Assembly (NCBI GenBank): GCA_030537525.1 | Contig: JAUNVU010000002.1 | Span: 1 to 64,000, forward strand | From: Eubacteriales bacterium | Lineage (GTDB): Bacteria; Bacillota; Clostridia; Saccharofermentanales; DTU023 | Direction: 5' to 3' | DNA length: 64,000 bases | Shown here: piece by piece, positions 4,696-30,569 of the stretch | Numbering within the stretch: the first letter of the stretch is position 1 | How the letters are laid out: every line of letters begins with the position of its first letter | The notes under the pieces: model-generated | The model's input: only the letters and a program-made list of their open reading frames with translations | Told to the model about the DNA's origin: nothing | Database searches by the model: none | Translations under genes and position numbers: made by a program

Positions 4696-6255
4696 TTAGG
4701 GAATGGTGGCAGGTGGGATTGTCACCTGATGTCTGTTGACCGTGGGCTCGGGGCCAGTAAGTTCTACTTCTGCCTCGGGCCCTCTAAATGAGCCCAGAGG
4801 ATAGTCGGGATCAGGGCGCCAGAGCTGCCACTCGCGCAAACCCACGTCTCGCAGAGCTCGCATCTGCTCGCGAATCTCATGATCTGTGTAATCTATGTAG
4901 TAGCCAGGCGGTAGGTAGTTGGCGGTAAAAGCCTGGAGATAAGGCCGCATAGTTGCGTAACCTTTCTGGGCAAAGCCGTCGAGACCGGCCAGCATGGTGT
5001 TCTTCACCACGCCATAAGGTTCAAGGTCCGGCTTGTCGAAAAGAGTATCACCAATCTGCGATCCCTCACCATTGCCTGAGTAATGCAGTGAGCTGTTGGC
5101 AAAGTGAGAAGGATAGACCATGACGCCGATATTATCTATGCCCGTGAGGCCGATGCTCTTCCAGTGTTGTCCCAAGAGGAAGCCGTCAATATCTGAGAGC
5201 ATGATAGAGGCGAAGAGGTCGGCTCCTAGAGGCACCTTGAGCTTGTCCTGGATTTCGATGCGCGCCGTTTCTAGGAAGCGATTGATGACCCAATGGCGTT
5301 CAGGCAAGTCCTCATTTGAATAATTCTCTGAGAATAAGGCATCTAGTTCACCTTCGGGAGCTCCCGTGGGGAAGCGAATGTAGTCGAATTGGATCTCGTC
5401 GACACCGAAGGCGATGAGTTCCTTGCAAATATCGATAATGTATTGCCAGGCTTCTGGATTATAGGGGTTGACGAAGGAGGTTCCACCCTCCATAGGGTAT
5501 TTACAGACTTGCTTAGCCGTATTGCGGATACAGAGGTCTGGTCGACCATTCACCATCTGCTCATCCTTGAAGACGACAACACGGGCGATAACGAGGACGC
5601 CTTCGGCATGGCAGCGTCTACATATTTCTGCCCAGTCTAAACTGCCGACACTTGCGCCTATTTCAACAGCCAGTGGCACCTTGCTCTGGTAACTTAAACC
5701 GTAGCTCTCCTTGGCGTCTATGATCAGGGCGTTGACTTCGGTGGTCTTTGCAATCTTTAGGAAATAATCTAATAAATCATTATCTGGAGTGCGACAGTAG
5801 ATTCCACGTACGGGATGACGCTCATAGCTGGGATCGCTGAAGGTTTGAGGCAGCTTGCCAAAAAAGGCGTCTAATTGAGAAATTATTTCTGGATCGTCGG
5901 TGCTGTGCATCACGGCCTCGACAAGGCTGTCAGGAGGTACTTCTATGGATTCTCCTGGCAAGGTGGTATTAGCCTCTGAGGCCCTGATAGCTGCAAGTTG
6001 TCGTTCATGATAATAGTCTCTTAGATAGAGGGCCGCCAGCAGGCCGAACAAGATTATGGCGAGAGCAATAGAGAGTAGAGTTAAATTGCCGATCAGGCCA
6101 CGGCGTCGTGGCGGCATCTTGAGGAAGATCTTTTCTACTGCCTGGCGATCGGGTAAGACTTCTCGCGGGCTATGTTTTGCTGCATTGGCGGAGTCAGGAA
6201 ATTTCTTTAGTCGCTTCCTAGAGCCTCGCCTAGCTTGATTTGGCTGCCTCTTCAT
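4696..6255 (-). CDS. DUF4015-type putative glycoside hydrolase, membrane-anchored
   Basis: The 519-residue protein has a basic cytoplasmic N-terminus (MKRQPNQARRGSRKRLKKF), one membrane span near residues 54-79 and a large extracellular domain from about residue 149. This domain matches the DUF4015 putative glycosidase TIM barrel: RGIYCR, LIIDAKESYG, ARVVVFKD, FVNPYNPEAW, DEIQFDYIRFP, GADLFASI and GVMVYPSHF follow in barrel order. The acidic residues in DAKE and FDYIRFP are plausible active-site positions, but no substrate is established. ATG 6255 has AGAGG almost adjacent; an upstream in-frame ATG at 6273 lacks an SD, and a longer frame to 6348 would overlap the divergent gene. Probably acts on wall or surface glycans (inference). 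Confidence 0.8.
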   Translation of the reverse strand: MKRQPNQARRGSRKRLKKFPDSANAAKHSPREVLPDRQAVEKIFLKMPPRRRGLIGNLTLLSIALAIILFGLLAALYLRDYYHERQLAAIRASEANTTLPGESIEVPPDSLVEAVMHSTDDPEIISQLDAFFGKLPQTFSDPSYERHPVRGIYCRTPDNDLLDYFLKIAKTTEVNALIIDAKESYGLSYQSKVPLAVEIGASVGSLDWAEICRRCHAEGVLVIARVVVFKDEQMVNGRPDLCIRNTAKQVCKYPMEGGTSFVNPYNPEAWQYIIDICKELIAFGVDEIQFDYIRFPTGAPEGELDALFSENYSNEDLPERHWVINRFLETARIEIQDKLKVPLGADLFASIMLSDIDGFLLGQHWKSIGLTGIDNIGVMVYPSHFANSSLHYSGNGEGSQIGDTLFDKPDLEPYGVVKNTMLAGLDGFAQKGYATMRPYLQAFTANYLPPGYYIDYTDHEIREQMRALRDVGLREWQLWRPDPDYPLGSFRGPEAEVELTGPEPTVNRHQVTIPPATIP

Positions 6256-26691: not shown

Positions 26692-28140
26692 GTGATCAAT
26701 CGAAGGATGCTTTTATATATACTAGGTCGCATCTTGCATATAGAAGCGGCACTCCTCGTGCTTCCCCTGGGGATCAGCAGGATATATCGAGAGCCGTTGC
26801 GGATCAGTGCTATCTGGCTCTTGACGGCAGCACTCTGTCTCATTATTGGCACAATTTGTACTTGGCATAAACCAAAGGAAAGAAATCTCTATACCAGAGA
26901 TGGCCTGCTAAGCGTGGCTTTGGCCTGGTTATTACTATCGGTATTCGGAGCTCTGCCATTTTACTTGAGTGGGCAGATACCCGCTTTTCTCGATGCCTTC
27001 TTCGAAACTGTTTCAGGTTTCACAACCACGGGTTCGACTATACTGCAAGATGTTACTGTGCTAGACAAGTCTATGCTGTTTTGGCGCTCTTTCACCCACT
27101 TAATTGGCGGCATGGGTGTGCTGGTTCTGGCTCTGGCCATTGTGCCAGCTTCCGACTCTGATTCGGTGCACTTGATGAAGGCGGAAGTGCCTGGCCCGAC
27201 CTTCGGTAAGCTAGTTGCCAGAATGCGTGCAACGGCGAGAATTCTCTATTCCATATACTTGATCATGACCGTAGCCCTGATTGTCATTCTTTACCTACTG
27301 GGCATGCCACTATTCGATGCCATGATTCATTCTTTTGGTGCAGCTGGTACGGGTGGCTTCTCTTCACAAGCGGAATCGATCGCTTCCTTTAACTCGCCAG
27401 CCATAACCTATGTCACGGCCATTGCCATGCTGGCCTTCGGTGTTAATTTCAATCTTTACTATTTGATTCTCATTGGACAGGTCAGAAAAATATTTAAGAG
27501 TGAGGAACTTAAGGCCTACCTCTTAATTTATGCGACTGCGGTTCTACTTGTATTCTTTAATCTGTTGACATTTTTCTCAGATGTCACAACGGCCTTCCAG
27601 GAGAGCTTCTTTACTTGTGCCTCGATTATGACGACTACGGGCTACTCATCCGCTGACTTCGCACAATGGCCGCTATTCTCGCATGTGGTCCTCTTGCTTC
27701 TGATGTTCATCGGGGGTTCAGCTGGCTCTACGGCTGGTGGTCTGAAGGTTTCTCGTGTAGTTATTCTCGTTAAGATGGCGATCAAGGAAGTGCGTCAGAG
27801 TAGGGAGCCAAGAAGGGCTCTTGCCTTGTTATTTGATAAGAAGGCGGTTACTGAGCGGCAGCAGGCTAGGGTAAGTAGTTATTTCTTAGTCTATGTCGTG
27901 ATTTTTATGATTCTTTTATTCTTGATTGCGCTGGATTGCAAGACCTATGATGTGGCGTTTTCTGCGGTGGCTTCGACTTTCAATAATATAGGGCCTGGTC
28001 TATCTGTCATTGGCCCAACAGGATCCTTTGCCAGATTTAGTAATTATTCCAAACTGGTGCTGAGCTTCGCCATGTTGCTTGGACGCCTGGAAATTTATCC
28101 GATGCTGTATTTGTTTAGGGCGTTTAGGAATAGGAATTAG
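26692..28140 (+). CDS. trkH: Trk potassium uptake channel subunit TrkH
   Basis: A 482-residue K+ translocating subunit with four pore-loop repeats. The filter-type loops are visible as SGFTTTGSTI, GAAGTGGFSS, IMTTTGYSS and STFNNIGPGLS. Twelve or so membrane segments are predicted. Start GTG at 26692, coupled to trkA. The stop codon is immediately followed by a 17-bp copy of the tRNA-Gly 3' end (28141), so the gene marks the left edge of a small island. Confidence 0.95.
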   Translation: MINRRMLLYILGRILHIEAALLVLPLGISRIYREPLRISAIWLLTAALCLIIGTICTWHKPKERNLYTRDGLLSVALAWLLLSVFGALPFYLSGQIPAFLDAFFETVSGFTTTGSTILQDVTVLDKSMLFWRSFTHLIGGMGVLVLALAIVPASDSDSVHLMKAEVPGPTFGKLVARMRATARILYSIYLIMTVALIVILYLLGMPLFDAMIHSFGAAGTGGFSSQAESIASFNSPAITYVTAIAMLAFGVNFNLYYLILIGQVRKIFKSEELKAYLLIYATAVLLVFFNLLTFFSDVTTAFQESFFTCASIMTTTGYSSADFAQWPLFSHVVLLLLMFIGGSAGSTAGGLKVSRVVILVKMAIKEVRQSREPRRALALLFDKKAVTERQQARVSSYFLVYVVIFMILLFLIALDCKTYDVAFSAVASTFNNIGPGLSVIGPTGSFARFSNYSKLVLSFAMLLGRLEIYPMLYLFRAFRNRN

Positions 28141-28157
28141 TGGAGCGGGTGAGGGGA
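28141..28157. repeat. attL-like copy of the tRNA-Gly 3' end
   Basis: These 17 bp are identical to 30496-30512, the 3' end of the tRNA-Gly gene including its CCA. Identity stops sharply after the repeat apart from a shifted ATCG. Same orientation as the intact gene's end. Confidence 0.75.
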
Positions 28158-28340
28158 GATCGCAAGTGCTCCTTATCTAATATTTCGATGTTGTTCATAG
28201 GCATAAAGAAGCCTCCCAAACTGGGAGGTTGTCATATGAAGTTGTTGGTCTACGGGCTTAATTATGTGAGCCTTATTCTTTAATATCACGTACTAGGAGA
28301 TGGTTTTGCGATTTTAGTGATACTTAGTAAGTATTAATCT
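28158..28340. other. Gap between the att-like repeat and the NYN gene
   Basis: No gene seen. It contains the hairpin CCTCCCA-AAC-TGGGAGG (28212-28228), which could end trkH transcription; the following T-run is weak on both strands. Confidence 0.4.
28212..28228. terminator. Hairpin downstream of trkH and the NYN gene
   Basis: A perfect 7-bp stem with a 3-nt loop. On the minus strand it is followed by CTTCTTTATG, on the plus strand by TTGTCATATG. A modest bidirectional terminator. Confidence 0.5.
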
Positions 28341-29051
28341 TTATTTAAGAGGTTTATCTTTTCTGTGACTTTTTATTCGTCCTTTTTCTTCCTTAGAAGC
28401 GTACGCAGGATTATCAATTTGAGAATGCAAGCCATCAATATGCTCGAAAAGATCATCTTTGATGGGCATCCACATAGGATCCAAAATAAAATCCACTCCT
28501 TCACGCCTAGCTAGTTTTGCGGCAGGAACAAAGTCACTATCACCAGCGATAAGAATAATTTGATCCACTTGTTTCTTATAACACATAGATGCTATATCAA
28601 GTCCGATTCTCATATCTACACCTTTTTGTCTTATATCCAGCTGTACATCTCGCTCATCGAGTTCATCTAAGGTAATTTTGTTATTGAATAGATCTTTAAT
28701 TCTTTCGGGAGCAAGTTTCCATGTTGGATTTTCCTCATCAATTTTACCTTTCCTAAGAGCGAGTTTACGCTTTTTAGTTAGTTCTTTGAAAAAACCTAAC
28801 CTCCATTTAGCTCCTTCTGTCTTAATCATATGAACGGGTTTTTTAGATATAGGGTTTACTGCGTGTAGATTAGGCGGAGGGCAATCATAATAGAAAATCC
28901 TGTATAGTTTGGCATCTTCGCCAGCTTGTTCAAGGTGGGCTTTACAGTATCTGATCATCATTGTCGCTGCGTCTCGTGGATTCTGTTTGCCCCACACTAA
29001 CATTGCTCTGCGAGTATAAAAAGCCCCATCAATCAAAATAGCAACTTTCAT
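28341..29051 (-). CDS. NYN-domain (PIN-like) RNase
   Basis: A 236-residue protein with the NYN/LabA PIN-like nuclease fold. The metal-binding acidic positions are visible in VAILIDGAF (Asp8), KGVDMRIGLDIASM and LIAGDSDFVPAAKLARREG. The C-terminal 25 residues are charged and probably disordered. Relatives are single-strand or double-strand RNA nucleases; many occur near defence genes. The start is ATG 29051, with GGAG 5 nt upstream; a GTG at 29057 would overlap that SD. It lies alone in the tRNA-Gly island behind an unusually elaborate promoter and leader. A defence role is inference only. Confidence 0.8.
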   Translation of the reverse strand: MKVAILIDGAFYTRRAMLVWGKQNPRDAATMMIRYCKAHLEQAGEDAKLYRIFYYDCPPPNLHAVNPISKKPVHMIKTEGAKWRLGFFKELTKKRKLALRKGKIDEENPTWKLAPERIKDLFNNKITLDELDERDVQLDIRQKGVDMRIGLDIASMCYKKQVDQIILIAGDSDFVPAAKLARREGVDFILDPMWMPIKDDLFEHIDGLHSQIDNPAYASKEEKGRIKSHRKDKPLK

Positions 29052-29059
29052 AAACACTC

Positions 29060-29119
29060 CAAAAAAAATCCCTGACCTCCGGCGCCTCTGGAATTAGATG
29101 AGACACGTACTATCAGGGA
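29060..29119 (-). promoter_or_regulatory. Attenuator-like hairpin in the NYN gene leader
   Basis: On the minus strand TCCCTGA (29119-29113) and TCAGGGA (29075-29069) can pair across a 37-nt loop. The right arm is followed at once by eight T residues (29068-29061) and then by the SD and start codon. This has the form of an intrinsic terminator placed just ahead of the gene. Confidence 0.5.
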
Positions 29120-29126
29120 ATGGATT

Positions 29127-29179
29127 TCACAACTTACTTGTTGTGATTTAATAGTACGTTCGAAAAATCGAATTGTCAA
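29127..29179 (-). promoter_or_regulatory. Promoter with nested palindromes for the NYN gene
   Basis: On the minus strand a perfect TTGACA (29179-29174) and TACTAT (29156-29151) are 17 bp apart. The spacer contains TTCGA-AAAA-TCGAA (29159-29172). The predicted start region, near 29144, lies in TCACAAC-6nt-GTTGTGA (29127-29146). The -10 is also one arm of a 9-bp inverted repeat whose partner is 29105-29113. These look like operator sites for one or more repressors. Confidence 0.6.
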
Positions 29180-29714
29180 TTCTGCAAGTTTAATCTTAGT
29201 TATCTAATAAGAAACTCCTAGGCTCGGCCAATCCCGGATGGTGGGGGCGTACTGCTAAGAGTTAGTTAATCTAAAGCAATGCTTAAATCGCATTGTGCAG
29301 TTATGTTATATTACACAGACTAGAATAGCAACTATTTTGATAACGATTTTAGCATTGAAATAGCTAGTAAATAATGGATTTATGTTGCTACGTTGGGAAT
29401 TGATTGCTACTATGTGCAAAAGAGATAACTCGCGAAGGACAAACACTGGGTCTCATAATGAGGTAGACACGCAAGTGTTGAGCAATCCTATGTGCCTGGG
29501 GTTATCTTTTTTATGTCACTTGCTAAAGCTTCTAATAAATATCGTTGAGGACATTTGTCAAAAGGGTGTGTTTTAACGATGATAGAATAACTGTTAAATC
29601 CTATAATCCAGAATACAGGACCACCTAAATAAAGGGTATGAGTTAAAAATGATCGTATTATCAGAGAAGTAGTCGGCGTCGAAATGCCGATAAAATAAGT
29701 AACTGGAGGAAAGT
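29180..29714. other. Non-coding stretch between NYN gene and next gene
   Basis: No convincing gene. It holds several possible RNA hairpins: a 9-bp pairing AACTCCTAG with TAAGAGTT around 29212-29263, CAATGC/GCATTG at 29277-29295, an AACACT/AGTGTT pair enclosing CTCA/TGAG near 29441-29479, and TCGGC/GCCGA near 29674-29691. A perfect TATAAT (29602-29607) probably serves the next gene, leaving a leader of about 100 nt. No known riboswitch is recognised. Confidence 0.4.
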
Positions 29715-30458
29715 ATGAAAAGGAATCAATCTAGTCAGCAAAGACCGAGACAGCACGCTGCACCTCGACAGAGAGCACCTCAAAGAGGTAAAAGACCGCC
29801 ACAATGGCAACAAGCCCCTTACTATAATGAGCGAAAAAGAAAAAACACATTGCTATTCCCATTGATCGCAGTGTCAATTTTAGCATTGGTCTTCTTGGTG
29901 CTTTGGATTTCGAAGCCTGGTGGAGATGAAGCTCTGAAAGAAAAAATTTCTCAGCTAGAAAAGCAAAATAAAGAGTTAAGTGCGCAGCTAGAAGTCAACC
30001 CCGAAGCTCCCGTGCAGCCGGACCAAGAACAACCAGTTCAAGCTGTATCAAATACCAAGCAAGCATATGGTGCTAATCAAGATTGGATTGTAGACGGGCA
30101 GTGGCGGTTGCAAGTCCACTCAGCCATACAATCAGATGAGCGGAACGAATACTCTGACAAAAAACCTGGACAAGTCGTCATTGTTTCATATACGTATGAA
30201 AATTTGGGGTATGAGGGTGATATTATGGAGCTTTACCTTATTCCGGCACGAGCTACAAACGGGCTTAAGAAAATGGGTTATTCGTATCCCGTAACTGTGA
30301 CGATTATTCCTCAGCAAACGCCTGTAGGAGCACTTTGTGAGGGAGCACAGGAGGTTTTTGCCTTTGATGATGTTTCGGATGAGATAACTTTATATTTTGA
30401 AAAATATGACAACGCAGGAAACAAGCAAAAAGCTAGATTTACTCTGCCAATACAATAA
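29715..30458 (+). CDS. Membrane-anchored protein with extracellular beta domain, unknown
   Basis: A 247-residue protein with an Arg/Gln/Pro-rich N-terminus (1-44), one membrane span (45-65, TLLFPLIAVSILALVFLVLW), a short coiled coil (71-94, LKEKISQLEKQNKELSAQL), a Pro/Gln linker and a C-terminal domain (about 118-247) resembling the DUF4352/DUF5067 immunoglobulin-like fold (GQVVIVSYTYENLGYEG; ITLYFEKYDNAGNK). No signal-peptidase site is evident, so the domain is probably displayed outside on a membrane stem. TGGAGGAAAG is a good SD. It is the right-hand gene of the tRNA-Gly island; function is unknown. Confidence 0.7.
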   Translation: MKRNQSSQQRPRQHAAPRQRAPQRGKRPPQWQQAPYYNERKRKNTLLFPLIAVSILALVFLVLWISKPGGDEALKEKISQLEKQNKELSAQLEVNPEAPVQPDQEQPVQAVSNTKQAYGANQDWIVDGQWRLQVHSAIQSDERNEYSDKKPGQVVIVSYTYENLGYEGDIMELYLIPARATNGLKKMGYSYPVTVTIIPQQTPVGALCEGAQEVFAFDDVSDEITLYFEKYDNAGNKQKARFTLPIQ

Positions 30459-30490
30459 AACCCCTGAAAGCGCTGCTATTCAAGGGTTTT
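30457..30490 (+). terminator. Terminator after the island gene
   Basis: AAAACCC (30457-30463) pairs with GGGTTTT (30484-30490) and, after one mismatch, TGAA with TTCA. The 3' arm ends in four T residues. It overlaps the stop codon of the gene. Confidence 0.75.
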
Positions 30491-30495
30491 GAGGT

Positions 30496-30512
30496 TGGAG
30501 CGGGTGAGGGGA
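30496..30512. repeat. attR-like end within tRNA-Gly
   Basis: The 3' terminal 17 bp of the tRNA-Gly gene, identical to 28141-28157. Confidence 0.75.
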
Positions 30513-30569
30513 ATCGAACCCCCGTATTCAGCTTGGGAAGCTGATGTTCTACCATTGAACTACACCCGC
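30496..30569 (-). tRNA. tRNA-Gly, anticodon CCC
   Basis: A 74-nt cloverleaf on the minus strand with CCA encoded. Acceptor GCGGGTG pairs with CACCCGC, the anticodon stem TCAGC/GCTGA encloses the loop TTCCCAA, giving anticodon CCC (reads GGG), and the T arm is GGGGGTTCGATTCCCC. The discriminator is U, usual for bacterial tRNA-Gly. Confidence 0.95.

Follow-up and report, generated by a model that had tools for sequence, protein, structure and literature searches.

In the type III toxin–antitoxin (TA) system ToxIN, a promoter is followed by an RNA, a terminator and the RNase gene. NYN nucleases, phage morons and islands at tRNA genes are known already. DUF3800 proteins have been linked to non-coding RNAs and to an RNase H-like fold (PMC10910872). 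Here we describe a 2.36-kb interval between trkH and a tRNA-Gly gene of an Eubacteriales bacterium (GenBank assembly GCA_030537525.1, contig JAUNVU010000002.1), found in a 64,000-nucleotide stretch that we call the window. The interval lies between direct repeats and contains, besides a structured non-coding block, genes for an NYN-domain protein and a membrane-anchored protein. Taken as a whole, the data are probably best explained by a prophage-derived mini-island that has att-like borders at tRNA-Gly and a portable RNA–NYN core, and that lacks a recombinase of its own. Such an island would consist of prophage lysogeny-module genes between att-like copies of the tRNA-Gly 3' end. Its portable core would comprise a promoter, a palindrome, a terminator-shaped RNA and the NYN ribonuclease. 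Elsewhere, this core is found between the repressor and integrase genes of prophages, or by itself in mini-islands with repeat borders at the 3' ends of tRNA and tuf genes, a distribution that suggests a phage-borne unit of control plus toxin, or of defence. Repeat-bounded RNA–NYN units were not found in the literature searched, coverage of which was partial. The same partial search returned nothing on NYN proteins in connection with superinfection exclusion, type III TA systems or integrase-less tRNA islands, and the few papers that combine NYN proteins and prophages were off topic.

Direct repeats and phage-derived genes at tRNA-Gly

The trkH gene ends at position 28140. The 17 bp that begin right after its stop codon (28141–28157, plus strand) are an exact same-strand copy of positions 30496–30512, TGGAGCGGGTGAGGGGA, and these latter positions make up the 3' end, with its encoded CCA, of an intact tRNA-Gly gene with anticodon CCC (30496–30569, minus strand; ARAGORN and Rfam). 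The first-pass annotation, made from the letters of the window, had pointed out this match, and it is exact. The 17-mer occurs twice in the 1,005,868-base assembly, both times at the island borders. Because a same-strand copy within 2.4 kb is expected only 1.8e-7 times, the repeat is not due to chance. The locus therefore carries a copy of the tRNA 3' end at its far border, as an integrative element at a tRNA gene would, and it lacks the integrase of such an element: neither the genes of the interval nor a Pfam scan revealed a recombinase or integrase between the repeats, as had also been noted at first sight. The G+C content of the interval is 39.4%, compared to 47.6% for the window.

The NYN gene (28341–29057, minus strand) encodes a 238-residue nuclease, and its assignment draws on Pfam, PHROGs, an alignment and an AlphaFold model with a mean predicted local distance difference test score (pLDDT) of 87.8. 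The protein matches Pfam NYN (PF01936) with 40.5 bits (E = 4.8e-10), above the gathering score of 24.2, and phrog_5783 with E = 1e-79. Residues D10, D58, D148, D154, D173, D175 and D193 are invariant in an alignment of 28 relatives. The conserved acidic catalytic residues of the Pfam family are present, and ribonuclease activity is predicted. Neither a sequence search of the PDB nor Foldseek yielded an informative match for the NYN protein, and a PADLOC search for known anti-phage systems returned a weak match to an NYN nuclease model (E = 9.5e-6) and no complete system. An intrinsic-terminator-like hairpin was seen downstream of the gene (28212–28228, minus strand).

The product of the second gene (29715–30458, plus strand) is a membrane-anchored beta-sandwich protein, which PHROGs and its relatives place with the proteins of phage lysogeny modules. 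Its C-terminal part matches phrog_806 (E = 7.5e-11), and relatives in phiEf11 (44% identity) and phiRM10 (33%) are both encoded between cI and the integrase. A search for viral relatives by peptide pattern found none. The two accessory genes first seen as open reading frames therefore both belong to phage families. Based on these PHROG families and on the positions of relatives near repressor or integrase genes, we assign both to prophage lysogeny modules. For NYN, this position suggests a service to the prophage, for example by excluding other phages.

We fetched 80 relatives of the NYN protein (50–58% identical), the closest of which is from Kallipyga gabonensis (58%). They are spread over Clostridia, Actinobacteria, Planctomycetes, Spirochaetes, Fibrobacter, Bacteroidales and Neisseriaceae. 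The gene is patchy, being present in 4 of 398 genomes sampled over the phylum and absent in the sister species. At 73 loci we could read the gene directly downstream of NYN, which is a tyrosine integrase in 24 cases and a serine recombinase in about 14. The upstream gene is often a cI-type helix-turn-helix or S24 repressor, and in phages Javan85, 2B8 and Brookers NYN comes after the repressor. NYN genes of this family are also found on plasmids of Campylobacter (pTet), Xanthomonas, Aeromonas and Thermus (hits H16–H45).

A structured leader RNA linked to the NYN gene

A 59-nt terminator-shaped RNA lies directly upstream of NYN in nearly all relatives. It is present in 75 of the 78 loci with upstream sequence, and 19 of these 75 are outside the seed of the RNA model (R1). 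In the alignment (A1), an outer stem of 8–12 bp is followed by a T run. Inside this stem come the conserved AGUA/GA internal loop, then a helix of 2 bp, and finally an inner hairpin whose loop contains AUA. Pairing is kept in 93.1% of 831 pair cells, and changes on both sides occur at 14 of 14 pairs. The covariation score is 0.679, compared to 0.269 for shuffles, which leave some sequence relatedness unremoved, and at most 0.21 for slid controls, which retain relatedness. The AGUA/GA loop appears to resemble the bulged-G (loop E / sarcin–ricin) motif.

The island carries two copies of this RNA family on the minus strand, within the block that the first-pass annotation had described as hairpin-rich and non-coding. 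The proximal copy (29060–29120; 41.1 bits, E = 4.6e-8, as a member of the R1 seed; fold z = -3.8) leads into its T run and the ribosome-binding region of NYN. The distal copy (29206–29263; 57.1 bits, E = 1.8e-12, also as a seed member) is closer to the consensus and has a weak match to Rfam TEG147. Two copies are also present at the Kallipyga gabonensis NYN locus, and in locus L042 a second copy (5944–6002) is found between NYN and the integrase. A promoter-like TTGACA-17-TACTAT sequence, recognized by consensus match only, precedes the proximal RNA (29151–29179, minus strand). Palindromes lie just upstream of both island copies, namely TCACAAC-N6-GTTGTGA at 29127–29146, a possible operator, and a second one at 29277–29295. 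The same holds for many relatives: in 42 of 70 cases the arms reach 6 bp or more, compared to 16–31 in shuffles. There is thus moderate support for the palindrome as a candidate operator. The nuclease gene accordingly stands behind RNA copies, a promoter-like sequence and palindromes, which agrees with the dense control ascribed to it earlier.

The leader RNA is essentially uncatalogued in Rfam, and in 14 scanned loci no family reached its gathering score at the RNA. TEG147 (RF03535) was the only Rfam model that touched it, with 25.6 and 33.2 bits against a gathering score of 56.1, and the TEG147 sequence had no match in the phages and plasmids searched. A stretch ending in a T run on the plus strand (29423–29512) is possibly a DUF3800-VII-like RNA, an uncertain call with 27.7 bits, below the gathering cut-off of 36.2, and a fold z of -0.9. 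This match lies on the strand opposite NYN, and no DUF3800 gene was seen in the interval. A search of 59 relatives for RF02967 found no match anywhere, and it is uninformative because the controls were equally silent. We rejected the Rfam names for the non-coding block, including TEG147, DUF3800-VII and other weak matches, as below cut-off.

Matches to R1 extend to phages Javan85, DO134P1, Bacchus and Mcat4 and to plasmid loci. Among the plasmids with NYN, the match was weak in Xanthomonas (26.8 bits) and marginal in Thermus and Aeromonas, and the RNA was not detected in Campylobacter. One NYN-bearing locus has a skipping-rope RNA (RF02924) upstream (L087, 194–279). The top-scoring RNA copy (79 bits; L137, G046:C9) is followed by a truncated NYN and then by a serine-recombinase-like gene. 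At other loci the RNA precedes a Schlafen AlbA_2 gene (L149), an AAA_21 ATPase gene (L141), a RelB-type toxin–antitoxin pair (L152) or a cluster with XRE and RelB-type genes (L140). On viral contigs L154 and L155, where it is not accompanied by NYN, it precedes an integrase or recombinase-like gene.

Origin and mobility of the island

RNA–NYN units between direct repeats recur elsewhere. At a tRNA-Met gene (L113), a 30-bp repeat with an 874-bp period encloses RNA and NYN only; the NYN stop codon abuts the repeat and there is no integrase. A 17-bp repeat at tRNA-Pro surrounds another integrase-less RNA–NYN island (L089), and at a third locus (L093) such an island lies between duplicated tuf 3' ends (115 bp at 97%, 401–515 and 1513–1627). 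In an unbiased search, RNA–NYN was enclosed by exact repeats of 15–70 bp at 15 loci, and some of these repeats extend when mismatches are allowed. Under a fixed criterion (a repeat of 16 bp or more within 420 bp), repeats flanked 13 of 71 RNA–NYN units, compared to 2 of 782 same-size segments from the same loci (p = 3e-13), a p-value that is somewhat optimistic because the criterion was chosen after the first cases had been seen; the effect is large. The G+C content of the cassette is below that of its flanks in 14 of the 15 repeat-bounded cases. In prophages, several border repeats are terminator hairpins beside the integrase gene.

We propose that a prophage or a derivative of one entered the tRNA-Gly site by a recombinase-type insertion, after which its integrase was lost or acted in trans, and we hold this step to be very likely. 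At the next step our judgment is evenly balanced: transcripts from the promoter in front of the RNA would mostly stop at its T run, the RNA itself acting as a terminator, NYN would be produced at a low level by read-through, and the protein would bind or cut the RNA as feedback or antidote. That the RNase would serve the prophage, with RNA from competing phages or from the infected host as the most likely target of its degradation, is a possibility we put forward with some reserve. With neither repressor nor integrase present, the island would be either a remnant in which the RNA–NYN pair was selectively retained or a unit reliant on recombinases acting in trans.

Several observations weigh against this account. 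The terminator hairpin 3' of tRNA-Gly (30459–30495) abuts the gene as a 36-bp element in sister species G001 as well, and may for this reason be native rather than element DNA. A clean insertion predicts element DNA beside the tRNA and the native terminator past the far copy, where trkH is found instead. Two explanations are possible: the elements of both species have this terminator, or the junction underwent rearrangement. The relatives compared showed neither an empty site nor a second att copy. Repressor and integrase are both absent from the island, which at 2.36 kb is also larger than the other cassettes (0.9–1.4 kb) and has an extra gene and a second RNA copy. Finally, the RNA is not exclusive to NYN and also stands before integrases or other effectors, and so it is not purely the leader of NYN.

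The first-pass annotation had read the repeat as the footprint of a tyrosine recombinase. The att-like repeat, the foreign phage-derived content and the parallel islands speak for this reading, and the terminator shared with G001 speaks against it. Sister strains had been expected to show trkH directly followed by tRNA-Gly if the site were empty. In G001, however, the two genes are not neighbours and the flanks are rearranged. A degraded prophage with portal, minor head and scaffold genes (L178, G001:C30, 1837–4718) adjoins the tRNA-Gly(ccc) of G001 on the same side as the island, which raises the possibility that the site attracts phages in this genus. A partial tRNA copy in G007 was rejected as an att site, as it looks like a contig-end overlap. 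It had also been suggested that the element is either satellite-like or a trimmed remnant. Pfam and PHROGs revealed no packaging, capsid-size or helper-control genes of satellites related to phage-inducible chromosomal islands (PICI) or P4, only NYN and the beta-sandwich protein. We rejected the satellite reading for want of helper-interference and packaging genes; the phage-derived, integrase-less nature of the unit stands.

The strongest alternative is that an ordinary tRNA-Gly prophage was passively reduced to two lysogeny-module genes between attL and attR, leaving an immobile remnant with no special biology. Both genes are typical of lysogeny modules, a degraded prophage adjoins the same tRNA in the sister species, and integrase and repressor are gone. 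Integrase-less, repeat-bounded RNA–NYN units nevertheless recur at unrelated sites in distant phyla and at a nearly constant size, and random decay is not expected to keep this pair. In addition, all acidic residues of NYN and the structure of both RNA copies are preserved here. Passive decay could well account for the locus, although we lean away from it.

Alternatively, the RNA–NYN unit, here with extra cargo, could be a non-autonomous cassette that phage recombinases mobilise in trans, using the 3' ends of tRNA and other genes as attachment sites. Four integrase-less islands at the 3' ends of tRNA-Gly, tRNA-Met, tRNA-Pro and tuf fit this idea, as do the low G+C of the cassettes relative to their flanks and the many cassettes that adjoin a recombinase gene. 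The repeat-bounded units share no border sequence, however; their repeats differ in sequence and length (15–115 bp), several are terminators, and one recombinase cannot serve them all. We therefore regard mobilisation in trans as rather unlikely.

A third alternative concerns the core itself, which could be a type III-like TA system in which NYN is the toxin, the RNA is an antitoxin that binds it, and the terminator determines how far the RNA is in excess. The order of promoter, RNA, terminator and RNase gene is that of ToxIN, and an RNA with a terminator stands directly upstream of the RNase gene in the 75 of 78 loci given above. The RNA shows close linkage to NYN and, in fewer cases, to further genes of toxin or defence type (Schlafen AlbA_2, RelB-type), and both the island and L042 have two copies. 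The RNA is usually single, however, and forms no repeat array; the protein has NYN as its sole Pfam match and no ToxN/AbiQ fold; and the RNA can stand alone before integrases. A TA function thus seems doubtful. Comparably speculative is a broader idea, in which R1 and exchangeable effectors (NYN and, more rarely, Schlafen AlbA_2, AAA_21 and RelB-type) would constitute a new type of minimal mobile cassette that lacks an integrase. Recombinases in trans would carry such cassettes from prophage to prophage and into the 3' ends of tRNA and tuf genes, and the RNA would sense phage infection or neutralise the effector.

The left repeat is improbable as the end of a decayed second tRNA-Gly gene, with the interval not an insertion at all, because the native-looking terminator still abutting tRNA-Gly and a faint likeness to tRNA beyond the 17 bp of the left copy are outweighed by the lack of a tRNA fold or tRNA call on that side, by the phage genes and low G+C between the copies, and by the shared layout of the parallel islands.

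Comparison with known systems

A covariation-supported RNA family that accompanies a single nuclease family in many phyla, in phages and on plasmids would be a readily testable prophage system of RNA–RNase control. The repeat-bounded units show that modules of about 1 kb with such a pair can be transported and maintained without a recombinase of their own. This is relevant to the spread of defence and toxin genes of prophages, and also to the question why certain genes persist in remnants at tRNA genes.

Among described systems, the CRISPR-associated NYN ribonuclease and Rae1/YacP share the NYN/PIN-like fold, but no CRISPR locus was seen in the island interval and there is no detectable PDB sequence match. 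DUF3800 motif RNAs (RF02967 and its relatives) are likewise structured RNAs beside a putative nuclease gene; the nuclease is a different one, however, and the island match is below cut-off and on the other strand. The Staphylococcus aureus small RNA TEG147 has the AGUA/GA internal loop and a terminator-like stem, whereas its match here falls below the gathering score and the Rfam entry says no more than that it is an S. aureus RNA. In type III TA systems (ToxIN, CptIN and TenpIN), too, a small RNA and its terminator immediately precede an RNase gene, but here an NYN (PIN-like) domain takes the place of the ToxN fold, there is no repeat array, and antitoxin action is putative. Like tRNA-targeted islands and satellites of the PICI and P4-like types, the island is small, phage-related and marked by a repeat of a tRNA 3' end. 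In contrast to them, RNA–NYN islands are only 0.9–2.4 kb long and have no integrase, packaging or capsid-interference genes. Phage morons and lysogenic-conversion genes next to cI, such as rexAB of lambda, have their own promoter and terminator, lie between the repressor and the integrase or N region, and are expressed from the prophage, and in these respects the RNA–NYN unit is like them. It differs in having a conserved structured leader RNA and often direct-repeat borders, and in also occurring alone at tRNA and tuf 3' ends.
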